21,393 bases of DNA from a virus, in the IMG/VR virus record IMGVR_UViG_3300028840_002083, positions 1-21,393 of that record; one strand, written 5' to 3'. A program made the translations under genes and the position numbers. The notes below the pieces were generated by a model. The model was not told the DNA's origin and did no database searches. It worked only from the letters and a program-made list of their open reading frames with translations. Shown here in pieces: positions 7,678-20,043 of the stretch (position 1 is the stretch's first letter; every line of letters starts with the position of its first letter).

Positions 7678-8442
7678 ATGGCTTGCTATAATGGCTATAA
7701 TATATTTAGAAATTATTCTGCTTCATCTCCTAAAGAATATCTAAAGACAACTCTACAACAAAGAATTGATAGAGACTTTTCTGACACTCTAGATGTATAC
7801 ACAGTTAAAATTAAAAACCGAATAACAAGTGAATTTTCTGATCTGACAGTACGTGTAGTAACATATGGTCAAGAATTCAGTTTCTTTAGTCATGACGATT
7901 ATAAGAAGATTGTATTTCAAGACTTAGACTATAACGTTTATATGGGAGATATTTTTGAATTCTCTGGATATAGATGAATAGTAGTACAAGCAAAAAACAA
8001 AGAAAGTACATCAAGTTCATGTGTTGTACAAAGGTGCAATACTATACTTAAATTTACTGAATCAACACCTATAACTGAGAATATAATTGAGATAGATTGT
8101 GTAGCTGAAAACAGAATACATGATAGTGCTAATGATTCATACATAGATTTACCTAGCGGTAAGTTGCAAATAATAATGCCATATGACCAAGATTCTATCA
8201 AAATACGTGTCTCACCAAAGCCTACAAGATTCTTAATTGGATTAGCTGATTGGAGAGGGCAAGTGAAAGCGTGGGAAGTTGAAAACATAGATACTATTCA
8301 GTATTTGCGTCAAGACTTATATGCCTCTACTCCATCAACTTATGCAGGTTCCCTTCGCGTAGATCTACGCGAAACACAATATGACAATGTCAGAGATGAT
8401 AGTTCTGTTGGTGTTGCTTGGCAGAGATACTTTGGGAGGTAA
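7678..8442 (+). CDS. Head-tail joining/connector protein (one in-frame TGA read as Trp)
   Basis: With the TGA at 7975-7977 read as Trp this is one 254-residue protein. Under the standard code it would be a 99-residue fragment followed by an open but start-less stretch of about 180 nt in the same frame. The context FEFSGYR-W-IVVQAKN, then SSSCVVQRCNTILKF, is the pattern I associate with phage connector proteins in which an aromatic residue follows the beta-turn. The second half includes SGKLQIIMPYDQDSIKIRVSPKPTRFLIGLADW. The stop is TAA at 8440-8442, followed immediately by TGA. A 20-bp perfect palindrome lies within the gene near its 3' end. Function is inferred from synteny. Confidence 0.78.
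8354..8373. repeat. 20-bp perfect palindrome inside the connector gene
   Basis: TTCGCGTAGATCTACGCGAA is a perfect inverted repeat with no spacer. It is much richer in G+C than the gene around it and encodes LRVDLRE using two CGC and one CGA-overlapping segment where neighbours use AGA for arginine. Candidate protein-binding or recognition site, or an mRNA hairpin. Confidence 0.8.
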
Positions 8443-10951: not shown

Positions 10952-11716
10952 ATGGAAACTATAACTATAGCATGTCCTATCCATAATAGAGGTAAATACT
11001 TACCTTTTTATCTGAAATGCATTCTCAATCAAACTTATCCCAAAAATCAAACAGACTTATTCTTTGTAACAAATAATTGTACTGACGATTCTATAAAAAT
11101 TCTAATGAAGTTCAAACAAGCTCATTCCGATAAATATTCCAATATAAGATTAGATAATATAAATGATAAATCCATACCATCTGATGGAGAAGATAGATAT
11201 TCAAGATCTAGAACAACAGTAATATACGATTTTTTGTCGTATTTAAGAAATTATATTTGTCGAAATACAAATACAGACTATCTTTTTTCTGTCGATTCTG
11301 ATATAATGCTTTTGCCTGACACACTAGAACGTCTATTAATACATAATAAGAAGTGCATCTCAGCTTTAGTCTGTAATGGGCATGTGTTTGCTAATAATTA
11401 TAAAGAAAAAAATATAGATAAATATCAATACACTAACATTCTAAACATGAATGAACGTGGTCGCTATTCTCATATCAATTTAACTGGAATCCAAGGTTTA
11501 GTCGAAGTAGATGTGACTGGAGCAGTCTATCTATTGCACAAAGATATATACAAAAAATGTAAATATAGGAAAGATTTGCAAGGGGAAGATATACCTTTTT
11601 GTAAGAATATAAAAAAATTAAATTATAAATTATATTGTGATACCAGTATAAAACTGGCTCATTGTATGACTTTAGAATTGTTAGAAAATTACAAAAAAGG
11701 TAAGTTTACATATTAA
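10952..11716 (+). CDS. GT-A glycosyltransferase (family 2-like)
   Basis: A 254-residue protein starting at ATG 10952 with AAAAGGAGA upstream. It begins with a typical GT-A N terminus, ITIACPIHNRGKYLPFYLKCILNQTYP, for nucleotide-sugar binding. It then has a metal-binding DxD-type motif in YLFSVDSDIML (about residues 110-120). VDVTGAVYLLHKDIY with QGEDIPFCKNIKKLNYKLYCDTSIKLAHC resembles the acceptor/catalytic region of Anp1-like and family 2 enzymes. It would transfer a sugar from an NDP donor to a protein, lipid or glycan; the substrate cannot be read. It is isolated between the tail terminator and the replicon and flanked by copies of a 13-bp repeat, which suggests an inserted accessory gene. 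All Trp-free; TGA is not used. Confidence 0.82.
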   Translation: METITIACPIHNRGKYLPFYLKCILNQTYPKNQTDLFFVTNNCTDDSIKILMKFKQAHSDKYSNIRLDNINDKSIPSDGEDRYSRSRTTVIYDFLSYLRNYICRNTNTDYLFSVDSDIMLLPDTLERLLIHNKKCISALVCNGHVFANNYKEKNIDKYQYTNILNMNERGRYSHINLTGIQGLVEVDVTGAVYLLHKDIYKKCKYRKDLQGEDIPFCKNIKKLNYKLYCDTSIKLAHCMTLELLENYKKGKFTY

Positions 11717-11730
11717 TTTCAAAATTATGC

Positions 11731-11759
11731 TTGTATTTTTATAAGTTTTTTAATATAAT
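11731..11759 (+). promoter_or_regulatory. Predicted rep promoter
   Basis: TTGTAT (11731-11736), a 17-bp spacer and a perfect TATAAT (11754-11759). Transcription from about 11766 would give a leader of roughly 200 nt before rep, fully overlapping the antisense RNA. Confidence 0.7.
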
Positions 11760-11771
11760 TTTGTCATAAAA
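11759..11771 (+). repeat. 13-bp direct repeat, copy 2 (TTTTGTCATAAAA)
   Basis: Exact copy of 10921-10933. It overlaps the last base of the predicted -10 box of the rep promoter and the T-rich end of the antisense RNA terminator, so it may be a regulator site or a recombination footprint. Confidence 0.55.
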
Positions 11772-11888
11772 AAGGAAAAAGCATATCTCCCCAGATATAC
11801 TGACTTAATCCTTATTATTAAACTTTAAAAAATTTATACCACACTAGTCAACCTCACTTGACTTAAACCGCCGTTATTAGCGTTTTAT
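11768..11888 (-). ncRNA. Candidate antisense (countertranscribed) RNA controlling rep
   Basis: On the minus strand a near-consensus promoter (see 11895-11923) would start an RNA near 11888. It would run through a stem-loop AGTCAA/TTGACT (11846-11851 with 11858-11863, six-base loop). It would end at an intrinsic terminator formed by ATATCT/AGATAT (11783-11798, four-base loop) followed on that strand by GCTTTTTCCTTTTTT (down to 11768). The RNA would be about 115-120 nt and is wholly complementary to the untranslated rep leader. This is the architecture of plasmid copy-number control RNAs, which block rep mRNA translation or elongation. No transcription data; inferred from promoter and terminator geometry. 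Confidence 0.68.
11783..11798 (-). terminator. Terminator of the antisense RNA
   Basis: Perfect six-base-pair hairpin ATATCT-loop-AGATAT. Only on the minus strand is it followed by a T-rich run (TTTTTCCTTTTTT, 11780-11768). On the plus strand the downstream sequence is not T-rich, so orientation is clear. Confidence 0.65.
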
Positions 11889-11894
11889 GGAAGT

Positions 11895-11923
11895 ATTTTA
11901 CCACGTACCTTTGAAATTGTCAA
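11895..11923 (-). promoter_or_regulatory. Promoter of the antisense RNA
   Basis: On the minus strand: perfect -35 TTGACA (11918-11923), exactly 17 bp, then -10 TAAAAT (11895-11900). It points away from rep into its leader. Confidence 0.75.
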
Positions 11924-11964
11924 TGCAAACATACAATAAACATAAAAACAAAGGAGCAAAACTA

Positions 11965-12906
11965 ATGAGAAAAGTAGAAGAAAATAATTTAATCGAAAGT
12001 TCGTATGTAGTCTACAAAGGAAATGATTTGATATCAGCTAAGAGTGATGCTATGACAGCATTAGAAAGCAAGTTACTATTGACAGCATTAAGCAAATGCG
12101 ATTCTAGTCCTGAAAGTATTGATACTATTCGTTTTGATGTAATTGAATATTGCAAATTAGCTAACATAAAGTCCGAGGGAACATATGATAAGATTGCAAG
12201 AGCTTGTCAGAATTTAGTGAGGAAAGGTGTGTTTCTCAAATTGACAGGTACAAAAGAAAAGAATTATAGTTGGGTATCTGATTCAGAATCAGAATATGGT
12301 GAAGTAGCTATAACCATAAATCCAACTATAAAACCTCTTATAAGCTTTCGCAAAAACGTACCTTATACAAAATTTTTATTAAGCAATATTTTACGTATGA
12401 ACAGTAAACATTCTATCAGACTTTATGAAATTTTGAAACAATATGAGCAAAAAAAAATAAGAACAATTGCATTACAAGAATTAAAAGACATTATGGGATT
12501 AAGTAAACAATATAAAACATATAAACCGTTTAGGATAAAGGTCTTGGAAGTTGCATGTACTGAGATAAACAAAGTATCGGATATTAAAGTATCTTTCACT
12601 CCAATCAAGACAGGTAGACGAGTTACAGAAATTAAGTTTACAATAACTTCTAAATTAGAAATAAGTGAATATGCTGGCATAGATAAAGCAAGATTAATTA
12701 ATAAGCTATTGAGTAATGTTAGTATAAAACATGGATATTTACTTAATAAGTCAATATTGACATCTTATCACAGAATTGTATTAATTGACCTAATTAAATC
12801 TATCGAACATGGTTTTACTTGCGAAGTCAAAAGTGAAGGGTTTTTCTATAATCTGCTAAAACTAATTAAGGAAAAGTACAGCTTAGAAGACCAAGAAGAT
12901 TACTAA
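11965..12906 (+). CDS. rep: Plasmid-type replication initiator, Rep_3 family
   Basis: A 313-residue initiator protein. The ATG at 11965 is chosen because AAAGGAG (11951-11956 region) lies about 8 nt upstream; an in-frame ATG at 11887 has no ribosome site and sits over the antisense RNA promoter. The N terminus, ESSYVVYKGNDLISAKSDAMTALESKLLLTALSKC, matches the Rep_3 (RepB/RepA/pi-type) start. Two winged-helix domains follow: about residues 15-130, and 130-250 with KHSIRLYEILKQYEQKKIRTIALQELKDIMGL and YKPFRIKVLEVACTEINK. Such proteins bind iterons and recruit DnaA and helicase to start theta replication. Iterons and DnaA boxes lie just downstream, giving a complete replicon. The last ~60 residues are an extra helical tail. 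The family call is strong; autonomous replication is inferred. Confidence 0.9.
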   Translation: MRKVEENNLIESSYVVYKGNDLISAKSDAMTALESKLLLTALSKCDSSPESIDTIRFDVIEYCKLANIKSEGTYDKIARACQNLVRKGVFLKLTGTKEKNYSWVSDSESEYGEVAITINPTIKPLISFRKNVPYTKFLLSNILRMNSKHSIRLYEILKQYEQKKIRTIALQELKDIMGLSKQYKTYKPFRIKVLEVACTEINKVSDIKVSFTPIKTGRRVTEIKFTITSKLEISEYAGIDKARLINKLLSNVSIKHGYLLNKSILTSYHRIVLIDLIKSIEHGFTCEVKSEGFFYNLLKLIKEKYSLEDQEDY

Positions 12907-12926
12907 ATTTTACATATATGAAATAG

Positions 12927-12956
12927 TATGGCTTTTAACGAGTCATATTTTTTTTT
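12927..12956 (+). terminator. Intrinsic terminator after rep
   Basis: Stem TATGGCT (12927-12933) and AGTCATA (12941-12947), one G-T pair, loop TTTAACG, followed by nine T. It insulates the origin from rep transcription. Confidence 0.8.
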
Positions 12957-12966
12957 GCACGTTTTC

Positions 12967-13115
12967 TGTGGATATCATGTGGGTGATTCTGTGGATAACT
13001 CCACCTCAAATGGCAACCTTTAATTTGCTGTTCATATTCTCTGGTAGTATATGTAATTTATTTTTTCAATTTCTGTGGATATCCTGTGGATATCCTGTGG
13101 ATAACCTGTGGATAA
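12967..13115. repeat. Cluster of six DnaA boxes (origin)
   Basis: Exact DnaA boxes TGTGGATAA (complement TTATCCACA) at 12990-12998, 13096-13104 and 13107-13115. One-mismatch boxes TGTGGATAT are at 12967-12975, 13074-13082 and 13085-13093. The last four start at 13074, 13085, 13096 and 13107, an exact 11-bp period (one helical turn), all in one orientation. Cooperative loading of host DnaA is the expected role. Confidence 0.88.
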
Positions 13116-13116
13116 A

Positions 13117-13178
13117 TTCACCCGATCGGTATCCCTATTCACCCGATTGGTACCCCTTATTCACCCGATCGGTATCCC
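13117..13178. repeat. Three 19-bp iterons of the replication origin
   Basis: TTCACCCGATCGGTATCCC at 13117-13135 and 13160-13178, and a two-mismatch copy TTCACCCGATTGGTACCCC at 13138-13156. Start-to-start distances are 21 and 22 bp, two helical turns. The core CCGATCGG is palindromic in copies 1 and 3. The first iteron begins one base after the last DnaA box. These are the likely Rep binding sites and are strikingly GC-rich against the AT-rich surroundings. Confidence 0.88.
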
Positions 13179-13550
13179 TTTAGCTTCTGGAGGTCAACTC
13201 TCCGTTAGTCTCTCAGCCTCGGAAAACAAAGATAACTTGTTATCTTATGTTATTAATATTATTAGATGGGAAAAAGAGTTTACATAATATTTTCAAGTCG
13301 TGTACATTTACATACCAAATATTTCCATTCTGACACTTTTAAAAATAAGCCTTTTAAATACCTTTTAAATCAATTTCATATACCTACAGGTAAATTTATA
13401 TTCAAAGCATATATCAATTAATTCTAGACCTATTTCTGATGCTCCTAGATGCATTTCTATTCGAAAGAAAACCCCCCGATGTTAGATCACACCTAATTTA
13501 CATCCTAATTATTTCCATATTAATCATAAAGCAAGCAAATAAAATAAAAT
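13179..13550. other. Non-coding AT-rich stretch beside the iterons (candidate unwinding region)
   Basis: No gene with a ribosome site is seen on either strand. It holds an 8-bp inverted repeat AAGATAAC/GTTATCTT with a two-base spacer (13229-13246), which could be an operator. It also holds a tandem CCTTTTAAAT pair with an 11-bp period (13350-13359 and 13361-13370), typical in style of AT-rich repeats at origins. A C6 run occurs near 13480. Placement next to iterons suggests the DNA-unwinding element. Confidence 0.55.
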
Positions 13551-13616: not shown

Positions 13617-14630
13617 ATGATAAACAGTCAAGATCGCAATATTGTATTCGTACCACCTATTTGTAACTGGAATTTTCTTAAACAATTACCGCAACAGATG
13701 TCAGAGCAATTTGCTAAAAATGGTTATAAAGTAATCTTCTGCAATGAGAGAATTGTAGGCGAACCTAAAATGCAAAATCCAGTAGAAAATGTCTATGTGT
13801 TTGCAAATGCAGAACACGCATTATCTTATATAAGACAAAACGATATAAAGATAGACATAATCTATAATTCAGCAGCAAAGAATTACAAATTTGTAGATGC
13901 TTTAAAGCCTAGAGTAACTATTTATCATAGTTGTGATTCATTTGACGAATGGAAGAAACTTGAGAACTTTATGATATCAAGAGCAGATATAATTCTCTGT
14001 ACTTCAGAGTTTTTATATAATATAAGAAATGGTCAACACCCAAATGCACACCTAGTCAGAAATGGTTGCAACGAAGCCATGATTAATGCGTCTTACTACA
14101 AAGAAGAAAAACTTAAATTTATACAAAAGCCTATTTGTGTTTTCTCAGGTGCAATAGGTAATTGGGTTGCAACCTATCTGATTAGGAACACAGCTAAACA
14201 CTTTTACACAACAATAATTGGTGTAGAGTTTGGTAAGACTGTTCCAGACAACTGTATGTTCTTTAAGGCTGTTGAACATAAAAGAATGATTGATTTTCTA
14301 AACAATATGGACATAGGTTTGCTACCATTTGTAACCAAAAAGGAAGTAACTCAAGCAGCGAATCCTATAAAACTATGGGAATATCTAGCTTGCGGATTAC
14401 CAGTAATTGCTACAGACTGGGCAGAAACGAATAGAGAAGAATTAAAGGATGTAGTTTTAGTAGCAAAGACTGACGATGAATATGTCGAATTGATACAAGA
14501 GTACAATTCTTTCAGTGAAGACAAACAATTAGAAATAAAAAATAAATGCTATGAAGTAGCAAGAAATAACACGTGGGAGTCAAGATTTAAAGATTTGCAA
14601 AAAGCACTAGATGAACTAGGAGGAGTCTAA
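13617..14630 (+). CDS. GT-B glycosyltransferase (family 4/1-like)
   Basis: A 337-residue GT-B fold enzyme. The N-terminal Rossmann-like half starts DRNIVFVPPICNWNFLKQLPQQMSEQFAKNGYKVIF and includes VTIYHSCDSFDEW and a SRADIILCTSEFLY segment. The C-terminal nucleotide-sugar domain contains CVFSGAIGNWV, MIDFLNNMDIGLLPF and the family signature NPIKLWEYLACGLPVIATDWAE with the Glu that binds the donor ribose. This resembles TuaH-like enzymes that add sugars to secreted or envelope glycans. It is the first gene behind a strong promoter, with the next gene starting immediately after its TAA. The donor and acceptor are not deducible; a cytoplasmic enzyme is expected as no membrane segment is seen. 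Confidence 0.85.
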   Translation: MINSQDRNIVFVPPICNWNFLKQLPQQMSEQFAKNGYKVIFCNERIVGEPKMQNPVENVYVFANAEHALSYIRQNDIKIDIIYNSAAKNYKFVDALKPRVTIYHSCDSFDEWKKLENFMISRADIILCTSEFLYNIRNGQHPNAHLVRNGCNEAMINASYYKEEKLKFIQKPICVFSGAIGNWVATYLIRNTAKHFYTTIIGVEFGKTVPDNCMFFKAVEHKRMIDFLNNMDIGLLPFVTKKEVTQAANPIKLWEYLACGLPVIATDWAETNREELKDVVLVAKTDDEYVELIQEYNSFSEDKQLEIKNKCYEVARNNTWESRFKDLQKALDELGGV

Positions 14631-15656
14631 ATGAAAGCTTCTGATGTTAGAGTTTTATTATTAAATCCAGTTCCAAGCTTGATCAAATACGGAATTAAAT
14701 GGGGTTTTGATAAATGTGGATGTTACACATATCTGATGGAAGGTGACGATCAAGTTTATTTGTTAAGACAAGAACAGGATAGAAATCTAGCTTTAAGAAG
14801 AATTGAAAAAGCTATTATTACTCATGATATAAATCTTTTATTTTGTGAAGGCTATGCAAATATGCCTATAGCAGAGATCTCAGAGATATGTAAGAGACAC
14901 AATGTAAAGTTTCATTGGTGGGCAATAGAAGATCCAGTAACTCCAAACATAGGCGAAAATGTAGTAAAACAAAAATTAGTAGATTATATTTGGACAACAA
15001 CAGTAGAGTTTATAAATAAATATAAAACACTTGGAATACCTAGCGATTTGCTAATGTTTGCTTGCAATCCAGACTTCCATAAACCAGTAATTGGAGAAGA
15101 TAGATTTAAACATGATATATCCGTAATTGGAACTAACTATTCTAATAGATTTGACAAGACTAAAGAGTTTATATTTCCTCTGATACAAAGAGATTACGAT
15201 ATAATGATCTATGGTCAATGGTGGATGAAGAAGGAACAAAAGGTAAATCTAATAGAATTTAAAGATAAAGGAATTTATTGGCAAGAAGATGGATATATAC
15301 AATTGCCTTATGAGTGGTTGCCTATAGTTATAAATAGTTCAAAAATCATGTTTGGTTTAAATTGTAGCGATAAGAGTACTACACAGACAAGTTGTAGACC
15401 ATACGAAACACTAGCATCAAGTGGAGAATCTGTTTATGTAGCATATTATACACCTGCTCAAAATTATTTATTTAAAGATTACATTGTTCAAGCACACACA
15501 GGTAGAGAAATGCTAGATAAGGTAGATGATGTTTTAACTTGGTCAGATGCCAAAAGACGTGCTATGGCTCAAGAAGCAAGAAACTATGTAGTGTCAAATC
15601 ACACATATGAAAGTAGAGCAAAGCAAATAATTAAAGTAATCTTGGAAGGTGATTAG
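14631..15656 (+). CDS. CgeB-like glycosyltransferase
   Basis: A 341-residue GT-B enzyme resembling the CgeB spore-maturation/glycosyltransferase group. The N-terminal domain holds LLFCEGYANMPIAEISEICKRHNVKFHWWAIEDP. The hinge carries VDYIWTTTVEFINKYKTLGI and the hallmark-like ACNPDFHKP. The C-terminal domain has DISVIGTNYSNRF, SKIMFGLNCSDKST, a RPYETLASSGE segment and the ending NHTYESRAKQII typical of the group. CgeB relatives glycosylate spore coat, S-layer or other surface proteins. The ATG abuts the previous stop and has a strong AGGAGG. Gene order suggests a shared glycan with its neighbours. The family call is good; the substrate is unknown. Confidence 0.82.
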   Translation: MKASDVRVLLLNPVPSLIKYGIKWGFDKCGCYTYLMEGDDQVYLLRQEQDRNLALRRIEKAIITHDINLLFCEGYANMPIAEISEICKRHNVKFHWWAIEDPVTPNIGENVVKQKLVDYIWTTTVEFINKYKTLGIPSDLLMFACNPDFHKPVIGEDRFKHDISVIGTNYSNRFDKTKEFIFPLIQRDYDIMIYGQWWMKKEQKVNLIEFKDKGIYWQEDGYIQLPYEWLPIVINSSKIMFGLNCSDKSTTQTSCRPYETLASSGESVYVAYYTPAQNYLFKDYIVQAHTGREMLDKVDDVLTWSDAKRRAMAQEARNYVVSNHTYESRAKQIIKVILEGD

Positions 15657-17450
15657 ATGAAAAGAATTAAATTAATATCTGGTACAATACGTCCTTATGT
15701 ATTTAACCATAATTATTCACACTGAAAAAGCAAAGCTAAAGATATGTCTAGAATAGATGTAACTGTAGCAGTCAATACAAGTGCACAAGTAGATGAAATA
15801 AAGAGAGAACATCCAGAAGTAGAAGTAGTTAATATTGGTGAGAATATCGGAATTTGTAAACCAATTTATGAAATCACAAAGAATTTAAAAGGCAATGATA
15901 ACGATATAGTGATAGCTTTCTTTGATGATGTATTTTGCATTAGCGAATGGGACGAATATCTATATGAACAATTTGAAGATTTTTCTGGAGCAGTAATGAT
16001 AAATGATGGTGTGCAACATCCAGATCCAAAAAATGCACCATTGTTAGTTGCGGTTACTATGCCAGTAATGGACATGGCTACACTGAAAAGGCTTAATAGA
16101 ATAATATTTAATCCAACATATGCTCACTATTATGCTGACAATGAACTGTACTCGAACTTAGAAGAGATGGGATTGCTGAAAGATAATAGGGTACATGACA
16201 AAACAACATTTTTACACAAACATTTTAACAAAGTAGACGAAGTAAGATCTGATGAACATGATCAAAGAGTAGTGGACAAATGTGCAATTCCAGATAGGGA
16301 AATATACAAGATAAGAAAGAAATATCCCTTAGAAGAAAGACTAAAGTTAAAATCAGACTATAGAGATGGTGATAAAATGAAAATATTGATTGTTTGTGAT
16401 AGATTAGAAATAAGAGGCGGTTTAGAAACACATGTGGCAACACTAGCCAAAGCGTGGGCAAAAAAAGATGATGTATTAGTTTATGCAAATGCAATTAGTA
16501 AGAAATATCAATTAGATCTAGCTTCTTGTAGTCTATTAAATGGATATAGTGATAAACATGATGATTATATTATTGATAATTATAAGCCAGATATTATTAT
16601 TGGACATCCATTTTCTGGAATAGATTTAGCCACAAAGCTATTAGCAAAACTTGACAATGCAAAGATGTACTCTGTAATGCATGGTGACTACACTACAGGA
16701 TTGAGTAAAGAGGCTATATCAAACACTAAGAAAGTTATTTGTGTATCTCATACAGCTTATATAGCTAATCGTAAGATAGTACCAGAAGATAAACTGAAGA
16801 TTATTTATAATGGCGTGAATATAAAGGACTTCTATCCTACAAAGAAACACATGGTACTCAATAAAAATCTTGGATTCAACAACAGGTTCAAAACTATAGT
16901 TGCTATAACAAGATTGCAAGATGGAAAAGAAATTCCAGTTAAACAATTATTACAAATATTAACTCCGTTGGCAAATAGACTAGCTGGTCTTAATGTTGCA
17001 ATAGTTGGTGGGGGAAGTCAATTAGATTTAATAAAAGAACTAGCAGAACAAGTACCGAAAAGTCCTAACTTGAATCTACAAATCACTGGTGAGAAAAATA
17101 ATGTTAGATCATATATGAATTTAGCAGATATAGTACTAGGTTGTGATAGAGTTGCAATAGAGTCAATACTTTGTAACAAGAACGTGTTTTATATGGGATT
17201 AGGTCAATGGAAAGGTTTGATTAAGAACGATAATTACAATGACTTAATATTTACAAAAAATGGATTTGAAGACTATACCAACGATGAATTAGTTAGACAT
17301 CTTACATGGATGTTGATGCACAAAAAAGAGATTGATAAGTATACCAATAAACTTATGGAAATAATAACCAATATATGCGATAATAAGATTGTAGCACAAA
17401 AATATATAGATACTTTTAATGAGGAACTAATACATGGACAAAAAGATTAA
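15657..17450 (+). CDS. Fused GT-A-like and GT4 glycosyltransferase (one in-frame TGA read as Trp)
   Basis: A 597-residue two-domain protein. The ATG at 15657 directly follows the previous TAG and has GGAAGGTGA upstream. The TGA at 15723-15725 (codon 23) lies where the paralogous downstream gene has TGG, gapless and in the same context (HW-KSKAKDM against EW-KIQCEDW). Domain 1 (about 1-240) carries an FFDDVFCI acidic motif and HYYADNELYSNL, as in GT-A-type donors. Domain 2 (about 241-597) begins MKILIVCDRLEIRGGLETHVATLAKAW, a GT4 N terminus with the GG loop, and continues with VICVSHTAYIANR, LKIIYNGVNIKDFYP, AITRLQDGKEIPVKQ and ADIVLGCDRVAIES. An ATG with a weak ribosome site begins domain 2 at 16377, so it may also be made separately. 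The domain order implies two successive sugar transfers. Confidence 0.85.
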
Positions 17451-18123
17451 ACTAATCACAGCTACCGTAAGACCTGCAATGTTTGCAAGTAACATGAATG
17501 AGTGGAAGATACAATGTGAAGATTGGAACAATGTAGATCTAACAGTGGCGGTAAATACACTAGAAGAAAAATTACTGATAGAAGAAATGTTTGAAGAAGC
17601 AAAAGTTATAGCAATTGGAGATAATATAGGTGTGGTAAAACCAATATTTGAGATAACTAAAACTTTAGACATAGGTGATGATGACATACTTTTAGCAATG
17701 TTTGATGATGTTGCATGCATCAAAAACTGGGATGTATATATCAAAAGTCAATTTGAAGATTATACAGGATCTATATTGCTTAATGATGGAATTCAAGACC
17801 CGATTACTAGGGGATTAATAGCAATAACAATGCCTATTATGGATGGAAGAACACTTAAGAAGTTGAATAGAATTATATATCATCCAGAATATATGCACTA
17901 TTACGCTGATAATGAGGTTTATAGTAATTTGTTGGAGCTAGGTTTAATTAAAGACATAAGAAGAGATGATGTGACTACGTTCCAGCACTTACACTATTAT
18001 GGAGTTAATCGAAGAAAAGCTGACAGTATAGATCATGAGATTATAGCCAAGTGTGGAAGTCCAGATAGGGCAATATTTGATAAGAGAATGAAACTATCTG
18101 TTAAGGAAAGGTTGGTTATTTAA
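17434..18123 (+). CDS. Stand-alone paralogue of the GT-A-like domain
   Basis: A 229-residue protein matching residues 1-235 of the upstream fusion over its whole length. Shared blocks include LTVAVNT, NIGxxKPIxEITK, FDDVxCIxxWD, LKxLNRII, HYYADNExYSNL and a TTF.H.H segment. It therefore looks like a tandem duplication, with the upstream copy later fused to a GT4 domain or this copy separated from one. Its start overlaps the end of the fusion by 17 nt, using GAGGAA as ribosome site. The conserved DD and HYYADNE suggest metal and donor binding, but I cannot name a characterised member. The paralogue contains TGG at codon 24 where the other has TGA. Confidence 0.8.
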   Translation: MDKKIKLITATVRPAMFASNMNEWKIQCEDWNNVDLTVAVNTLEEKLLIEEMFEEAKVIAIGDNIGVVKPIFEITKTLDIGDDDILLAMFDDVACIKNWDVYIKSQFEDYTGSILLNDGIQDPITRGLIAITMPIMDGRTLKKLNRIIYHPEYMHYYADNEVYSNLLELGLIKDIRRDDVTTFQHLHYYGVNRRKADSIDHEIIAKCGSPDRAIFDKRMKLSVKERLVI

Positions 18124-20043
18124 ATGGATAATATTTACTTTTGTCAGTTTTCAAGTCTCGTTGGAGATAATGTCTTTCTTCCATACTCTGTAGGTACAAT
18201 AATATCATATATAAATACAAATAAAGTCATTAGAGACAAGTACAATATTGACATAATGTTTTTAAAAGAAGATGATATTATTAAGAAGTTTGACGATCCT
18301 AAACTAGTATTTATATCTGTATATATATGGAATTTTAAATACAGCATGGATATTGCTAAAATGATTAAAGATAAATATAGTGACTGTAGAATCGTGTTAG
18401 GTGGGCATCACGTACCATATTACAGTTTTAATTTTTTCAAACAATATCCATTCATTGACATATTAGTACATGGAGAAGGCGAGAAAGTAACAGAAGACAT
18501 TTTGATGGGCAAATGTAAATACACTATTAATAACATATCTTTTAATAAAGAACTTAAGAGTGTTGATACTAGGAAAGTTTATAATAATTGTAATTTATTT
18601 GATATACCGAGTCCTTATTTGACTGGAGTATTTGACAAAATATTAAAAATGCCTTATAATTTTACAGCTTCACTAGAAACAAATAGAGGTTGTCCGTATG
18701 GTTGTGCTTATTGTGATTGGGGATCAACTCTAACAAGCGAAAAGAAGTTAAGGTTCTTTGATCAAGATAGGGTTTTAAAAGAAATAGAATGGTTTGGAAA
18801 AAATAATATTGAGTTTGTTTTTGGAACAGATTCAAATTTTGGCATTATAGAAAAAGATATGGACTGGATAGACAAGATAATTGAGACAAAAAAGAAATAT
18901 GGATATCCACAAAAATTCAGAGTTTGCTATGCTAAGAATAGCAACGAAAGGATATTTAATATGAATATGAAACTAAATAAACATGATATAAGTAAAGGTG
19001 CCACATTGTCATTTCAAACATTGAATAAAGAATCAGAAAAGGCAGTTGGAAGAATAAATATGTCTATAGATGATTATGGAAAATATATAAAAAAATACAA
19101 TGATAATAAAATTCCAACTTACACTGAAATGATTATAGGACTTCCAGAAGAGACTTATGATACTTTTTGTAATGGATTATGCCTATTGCTTGAGCATGAA
19201 CAGCATCACTCAATTGTCGTTTATTATTGTCAAATTTATCCTAATAGTAAGATAAATACAGATGCATTTAGGAAAGAATATGGCATTGAATCAATTAAGA
19301 TTCCAATGTACCCAACACACACACGAATACAATCAATGGATGATGTTGATGAAGAAGAAATTATTATAGCTACAAATAAAACAAATAAAAAAGAATGGGT
19401 TGACACATGCCTGTTTTCATGGGCGGTACAAGCCTTTCATTGTCTTTCTATAACCTCATTGATGGCAAGATATTTGAGAAAAAAGAAAGGTATTAGCTAT
19501 AGAGTATTTTACAATAGATTATTAGAGTTTGCTCAGAAACATCCGAAATCTATAATTGGAAGAGAATACCATAAGGTTAAACGGATATATGAAGAAGTAC
19601 AAAATGGACAAGGTTTCTATTATATAAATAGACCTTATGGAGATTTAAATTGGACTATAGAAGAAGGAAGTTTCTTGAGTTTTATATTAGATATAGACAA
19701 GGTTTACTCGGAATTGATCGATATTTATAGTGATATAGATGAACATATAGATGCAGAGATAGTTACTTCATTAGCAATAGCAAACAGATATTTGTTAAAG
19801 CAACCAATGAATAATCCAATATTAACTAATGATGAAAACATGAAAGACATATTAGAATTTGCTGGTATAGATCCAAGTCATGAGCAATATAGACTTATTA
19901 ACATTGAAGGATATAATGGTTTAGAAGATTATGCTCATAAAACAGTGTGGTATGGACGTAAAGGTGGACAGTTCTTGTATGATGACAAAAATATAGAAGG
20001 AAGGGAAAGAGTTGTATGCAAAAAAGCAAACTCATGGTCTTAG
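18124..20043 (+). CDS. Radical SAM enzyme with B12-binding-like N-terminal domain
   Basis: A 639-residue protein. The N-terminal ~140 residues are an alpha/beta domain resembling cobalamin-binding domains of class B radical SAM enzymes: LPYSVGTIISYI, VFISVYIWNFKYSMDIAKMIKDKY, IVLGGHHVPYY and IDILVHGEGEK. A DxHxxG cobalamin ligand motif is not obvious, so cobalamin use is uncertain. The radical SAM cluster is C190-x3-C194-x2-C197 in RGCPYGCAYCDWGS. Barrel features are FVFGTDSNFGI, FRVCYAKNSN, GATLSFQTLNKES and YTEMIIGLPEETYDTF. A 300-residue C-terminal helical domain follows. It starts next to the previous stop and probably modifies a sugar, lipid or peptide substrate of the pathway (methylation, epimerisation or ring chemistry). 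Such a gene in a phage is unusual. Confidence 0.86.
   Translation: MDNIYFCQFSSLVGDNVFLPYSVGTIISYINTNKVIRDKYNIDIMFLKEDDIIKKFDDPKLVFISVYIWNFKYSMDIAKMIKDKYSDCRIVLGGHHVPYYSFNFFKQYPFIDILVHGEGEKVTEDILMGKCKYTINNISFNKELKSVDTRKVYNNCNLFDIPSPYLTGVFDKILKMPYNFTASLETNRGCPYGCAYCDWGSTLTSEKKLRFFDQDRVLKEIEWFGKNNIEFVFGTDSNFGIIEKDMDWIDKIIETKKKYGYPQKFRVCYAKNSNERIFNMNMKLNKHDISKGATLSFQTLNKESEKAVGRINMSIDDYGKYIKKYNDNKIPTYTEMIIGLPEETYDTFCNGLCLLLEHEQHHSIVVYYCQIYPNSKINTDAFRKEYGIESIKIPMYPTHTRIQSMDDVDEEEIIIATNKTNKKEWVDTCLFSWAVQAFHCLSITSLMARYLRKKKGISYRVFYNRLLEFAQKHPKSIIGREYHKVKRIYEEVQNGQGFYYINRPYGDLNWTIEEGSFLSFILDIDKVYSELIDIYSDIDEHIDAEIVTSLAIANRYLLKQPMNNPILTNDENMKDILEFAGIDPSHEQYRLINIEGYNGLEDYAHKTVWYGRKGGQFLYDDKNIEGRERVVCKKANSWS

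Follow-up and report, generated by a model that had tools for sequence, protein, structure and literature searches.

The staphylococcal plasmid pSK41 encodes, in the leader of its rep gene, an antisense RNA (RNAI) of ~80-120 nt, which lies ~80-100 nt upstream of the start codon and acts on rep translation (PMC5703833). The SD of pSK41 rep is held in a stem beside the antisense promoter, the initiator is of the RepA_N family and the origin is within rep. RNAIII of pIP501 and RNAI of pT181 also span the 5' leader, and act via a leader attenuator. In pIP501, an antisense-controlled theta plasmid, the antisense leader, rep and the origin follow one another in that order, with the origin 3' of rep, and R1 shows the same order.

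Replicons with a Rep_3 initiator, such as those of pSK639, P1 and F, are iteron-controlled. Iterons and an antisense RNA occur together in lactococcal Rep_3/RepB replicons, which carry 22-bp iterons and ctRNA_pND324 (RF00238); antisense control in pND324 is ascribed to Duan et al. 1998, as cited by PMC5812246, and pLd1 carries a ctRNA similar to that of pND324 (PMC5812246). Among the loci collected here, a lactococcal RepB replicon in the Skunavirus sv66901 record (PP906168.1, 27528-31156; L146) has a Rep_3 initiator, three 22-bp iterons upstream and a ctRNA_pND324 (78 bits, Rfam model) that ends at the repB start codon. Its RepB is identical to the RepB of the 4.2-kb plasmid NZ_CP031544.1 and the Skunavirus record is circular; the record is a phage-plasmid cointegrate or construct.

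A plasmid-type replicon on a phage fragment

The window (the whole 21.4-kb stretch of DNA analysed here) is a phage fragment from a single virus record and encodes a terminase, a portal and virion proteins. These structural genes and a Rep_3 replicon stand on one contig, a single metagenomic assembly that could be a chimera. The elements of the replicon are as follows.

11731-11759, plus strand: candidate rep promoter, TTGTAT (11731-11736), 17-bp spacer, TATAAT (11754-11759), with a start at ~11766
11766-11964, plus strand: predicted rep mRNA leader, 199 nt, of which the 5' ~120 nt are complementary to the antisense RNA
11768-11801, minus strand: intrinsic terminator predicted to end the antisense RNA, with its stem at 11801-11780 and a T-rich tail
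11770-11888, minus strand: predicted antisense (countertranscribed) RNA, ~115-121 nt, non-coding, its ends placed from the promoter and terminator
11846-11863, both strands: candidate first-contact stem-loop, AGTCAA-CCTCAC-TTGACT in the sense RNA, loop GTGAGG in the antisense RNA, predicted on both strands
11895-11923, minus strand: antisense promoter, -35 TTGACA (11923-11918), 17-bp spacer, extended -10 TG.TAAAAT (-10 hexamer at 11900-11895)
11908-11956, plus strand: predicted SD-hiding stem, CCUUUG (11908-11913) paired with CAAAGG (11949-11954)
11965-12906, plus strand: rep, encoding a Rep_3 initiator of 313 aa (Rep3_N E 4e-30, Rep3_C E 3e-18)
12925-12957, plus strand: rep terminator, -7.8 kcal/mol, with a long T tract
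12967-13115, plus strand: six DnaA boxes (TGTGGATAW), of which four are spaced 11 bp apart (0.58 boxes expected across the whole window)
13116-13179, plus strand: iterons, three copies of ATTCACCCGATCGGTATCCCT, 21-22 bp apart

The rep product matched both domains of Rep_3 (PF01051), WH1 and WH2 (Rep3_N 105 bits, Rep3_C 66 bits), and an AT-rich stretch lies 3' of the iterons. Together, the Rep_3 gene and its terminator, the three iterons and the six DnaA boxes supply all the parts of a plasmid-type replicon, and the iterons are the probable Rep binding sites of its origin.

A predicted antisense RNA gene within the rep leader

The minus-strand promoter opposite the rep leader scored 14.7, the top value for that strand of the 21.4-kb window (the runner-up scored 12.4), with promoter weights based on approximate consensus frequencies. 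The hairpin at 11801-11780, a 9-pair stem AGTATATCT-GGGG-AGATATGCT of -9.0 kcal/mol followed by TTTTCCTTTTTT, was the best minus-strand terminator in the window; it was not among the results of a generic terminator scan of the same DNA. A promoter scoring 14.7 arose at 0.022 per strand-window in shuffled sequence and a terminator of this quality at 0.005, and a comparable pair at the observed distance of ~114 nt was seen in none of 1200 dinucleotide-preserving shuffles of the window, which is a lenient null. Because every larger gene-like ORF in the window lies on the plus strand, no other gene needs a minus-strand promoter or terminator here. These signals give good support to an antisense RNA gene lying wholly within the rep 5' leader, with the ~115-121-nt RNA as the likely product.

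The earlier note had described the same -35, 17-bp spacer and -10 and a hairpin-T terminator about 100 nt away, which were borne out, and had placed an RNA gene entirely inside the rep leader, which these signals support. It had also reported a sense promoter with a perfect TATAAT starting just beyond the terminator. The TATAAT is indeed perfect, but the -35, TTGTAT, is poor, and the score of 9.1 is at chance level, a value expected about once per 1.1 kb; TTGTAT-17-TATAAT is thus a plausible rep promoter that is not statistically significant.

The predicted RNA has a fold that is only mildly stable (z -1.8), and Rfam ctRNA families, ctRNA_pND324 included, gave no match in the window. Neither the antisense RNA nor the rep leader showed a convincing reading frame that has a start, and a peptide from either was dismissed on that ground.

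The rep leader resembles that of pSK41

The stretch targeted by the predicted antisense RNA stops 77 nt short of the rep start codon at 11965, which has a strong ribosome-binding site, AAAGGAG (11950-11956). An in-frame upstream ATG at 11887 was rejected as the rep start since it has no such site; with that start, antisense transcription would begin at the rep start codon, the arrangement of pND324. The SD is predicted to be sequestered, with a pairing of 0.80 compared to a shuffle mean of 0.34, and 1.2% of shuffles were equally paired. In equilibrium folds the SD stayed hidden whether or not the antisense RNA was present, both in the window and in the pSK41 control, and this test is non-discriminating because the known pSK41 case is also unchanged by RNAI.

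The geometry of the leader is the same as in pSK41. The antisense promoter lies at -41 to -69 relative to the start codon in the window and at -50 to -78 in pSK41, and in both the SD falls in a stem beside that promoter (predicted in the window). The sequences are unrelated, and the pSK41 initiator is RepA_N whereas that of the window is Rep_3. With pIP501 RNAIII and pT181 RNAI the window shares an antisense RNA over the 5' leader and, with pIP501 and other antisense-controlled theta plasmids, the order of antisense leader, rep and origin. Unlike pIP501 and pT181, which act via an attenuator, the window has a leader in which the terminator scan found no plus-strand terminator, and no cop gene adjoins rep in the window.

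Iterons lie only downstream of rep

To the iteron-controlled Rep_3 replicons (pSK639, P1, F and the relatives collected for this comparison) the window is similar in its initiator family, its 21-22-bp iterons and its DnaA boxes, but differs in where the iterons are. We surveyed the Rep_3 relatives with enough flanking sequence, 96 for the upstream side and 93 for the downstream side. Tandem iterons were found upstream of rep in 54 of the 96, compared to 0 of 92 shuffled sequences, whereas only one of the 93 (L015) had iterons downstream, and it has upstream copies too. The iterons of the window, like its six DnaA boxes, are exclusively 3' of rep, and no iteron copy was found near the rep promoter or elsewhere upstream of rep in the window. 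The region that normally serves for Rep self-repression therefore contains no iterons and is occupied by the predicted antisense gene. Two related gut virus contigs, L002 (5840-6000) and L003 (3740-3893), carry several iterons ATGGGGGACAAAATGACGAG, ~22 bp apart, immediately 5' of a TTGAC..TATACT rep promoter, an arrangement that, unlike that of the window, makes a clear case for Rep self-repression.

The iterons that the earlier note had mentioned together with the antisense gene are real, but they sit 3' of rep and not at the leader. The contrast it drew with other plasmid Rep families, as though an antisense RNA together with iterons were unusual on a Rep_3 replicon, did not survive the comparison with the lactococcal replicons. 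The ctRNA_pND324 group of lactococcal RepB theta plasmids (pND324, pLd1; also L146) has, as checked in L146, the same combination of Rep_3 initiator, iterons and rep-leader antisense RNA that is predicted for the window. The two arrangements differ in that ctRNA_pND324 reaches the repB start codon and its iterons are upstream, whereas the RNA of the window ends well before the start codon and its iterons are downstream.

Searches for relatives of the locus

Single-sequence searches with Rep or the portal, and a search for the 20-base iteron pattern, found no close relative in viral contigs. Shorter iteron and hairpin patterns matched six and two loci in viral contigs, which had no gene in common with the window. 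Alignment-based searches with Rep recovered 12 and 14 loci from viruses and 80 from genomes, at ~23-42% identity. Because the nearest Rep relatives reach only ~25-37% identity, their rep leaders could not be aligned to that of the window. None of 36 records of portal relatives contained a Rep_3 gene. A scan of the leaders of 99 relatives found no antisense promoter-terminator pair of the quality seen in the window, a result that is no firm evidence of absence because the scan misses all three known ctRNA controls. An Rfam scan of 20 relatives returned no ctRNA.

A model for control of rep

This arrangement is best explained by countertranscript control of Rep, to which the iterons would add a second layer. 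In the model that we consider reasonably likely, a constitutive antisense RNA would keep the copy number of the phage's plasmid-like replicon low and self-correcting, likely by blocking translation. Every genome copy would transcribe the RNA from its near-consensus promoter, so that the RNA level would track copy number. The RNA would pair with the 5'-terminal ~120 nt of the rep mRNA, probably by way of an initial contact between hairpin loops, and pairing would lower Rep synthesis. The antisense terminator is predicted to stop transcription just short of the rep start site, so the RNA would span the leader without crossing the rep promoter. Inhibition would most likely occur at translation, as in pSK41, since the leader is without an attenuator and the SD falls in a predicted stem 3' of the target; collision between the convergent promoters may assist. 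A pSK41-like block of rep translation is our best guess for this step. The iterons and DnaA boxes 3' of rep would be the origin, and Rep bound at the iterons, together with handcuffing, could provide a second brake. The transcription of the RNA, its pairing, the inhibition and the effect on copy number are what we infer from the arrangement of these elements, and the same holds for the 'switch' and 'dual control' of the earlier note.

A bolder version of the model is unlikely. It would have the Rep_3 initiator rewired in the phage into an R1- or pIP501-like unit that has lost iteron self-repression at the rep promoter and has its origin 3' of rep, with one antisense RNA serving both as prophage copy control and as immunity or incompatibility determinant, and with runaway lytic replication following its loss.

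Other explanations give the antisense RNA a different role or none. It could act by attenuation, making the nascent rep leader form a terminator as in pT181 and pIP501; the RNA spans the 5' end of the leader as it does in those plasmids, and the leader-rep-origin layout is common to pIP501 (PMC5703833). However, no plus-strand terminator is present in the leader, where the sole GC stem accompanied by a run of T (~11864-11887) contains three GC pairs, with the T residues falling inside the stem, and we regard attenuation as quite unlikely. Slightly more doubtful is that no RNA is made, the promoter and terminator having arisen by chance in AT-rich DNA. Promoter-like sites matching 9 of 12 positions are indeed as common in the shuffles as in the window, but the shuffles never produced a pair of this quality and spacing, and both signals are the top of their strand and both fall inside the rep leader.

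In phage P4 the CI RNA, and in P1 and P7 the c4 RNA, provide models for a prophage immunity RNA, and here too the antisense RNA might pair with the rep leader but serve mainly to prevent Rep synthesis by an incoming phage. The replicon is located amid phage structural genes, and a trans-acting RNA directed against rep would inherently cause incompatibility as well. Against this, the predicted RNA is complementary to rep, the one target considered, and the 21-kb fragment is without lysogeny genes to judge by; we consider such a principal role very improbable. The least probable of these readings is that control is mainly transcriptional interference, with a strong antisense promoter opposing a weak rep promoter and the RNA a by-product. 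The two promoters are convergent, ~140 bp apart and very unequal in score (14.7 and 9.1), but a dedicated terminator would halt the antisense polymerase before the rep start, sparing the rep promoter.

If countertranscript control of Rep is real, the window adds one phage to the few Rep_3 replicons in which control by an antisense RNA might be combined with control by iterons. The RNA would take the usual place of iteron self-repression, which raises the question of whether RNA control replaces Rep self-repression or is added to it, and it would offer a small system for testing how copy number is limited in a phage with a plasmid replicon. It is the layout, and not the combination of antisense RNA with iterons, that plasmid specialists may find interesting.

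Neighboring genes and codon usage

The flanks of the replicon (10952-11716 and 13617-20043) contain glycosyltransferase-like genes and a B12-binding/radical SAM protein, an unusual cargo beside virion genes. No tRNA genes were found in the fragment. The terminase, the portal and the ORF at 7678-8442 each contain one in-frame TGA, at 1076-1078, 1945-1947 and 7975-7977, respectively, and none of the complete called genes in the window ends in TGA. In alignments Trp stands opposite each of these codons: in 11 of 11 relatives for the TGA at 7975, in three relatives for that at 1945 and, for that at 1076, in the closest relative (54% identity). The codon count was 61 TGG to 3 TGA. The phage probably reads TGA as Trp, at least in these three genes.
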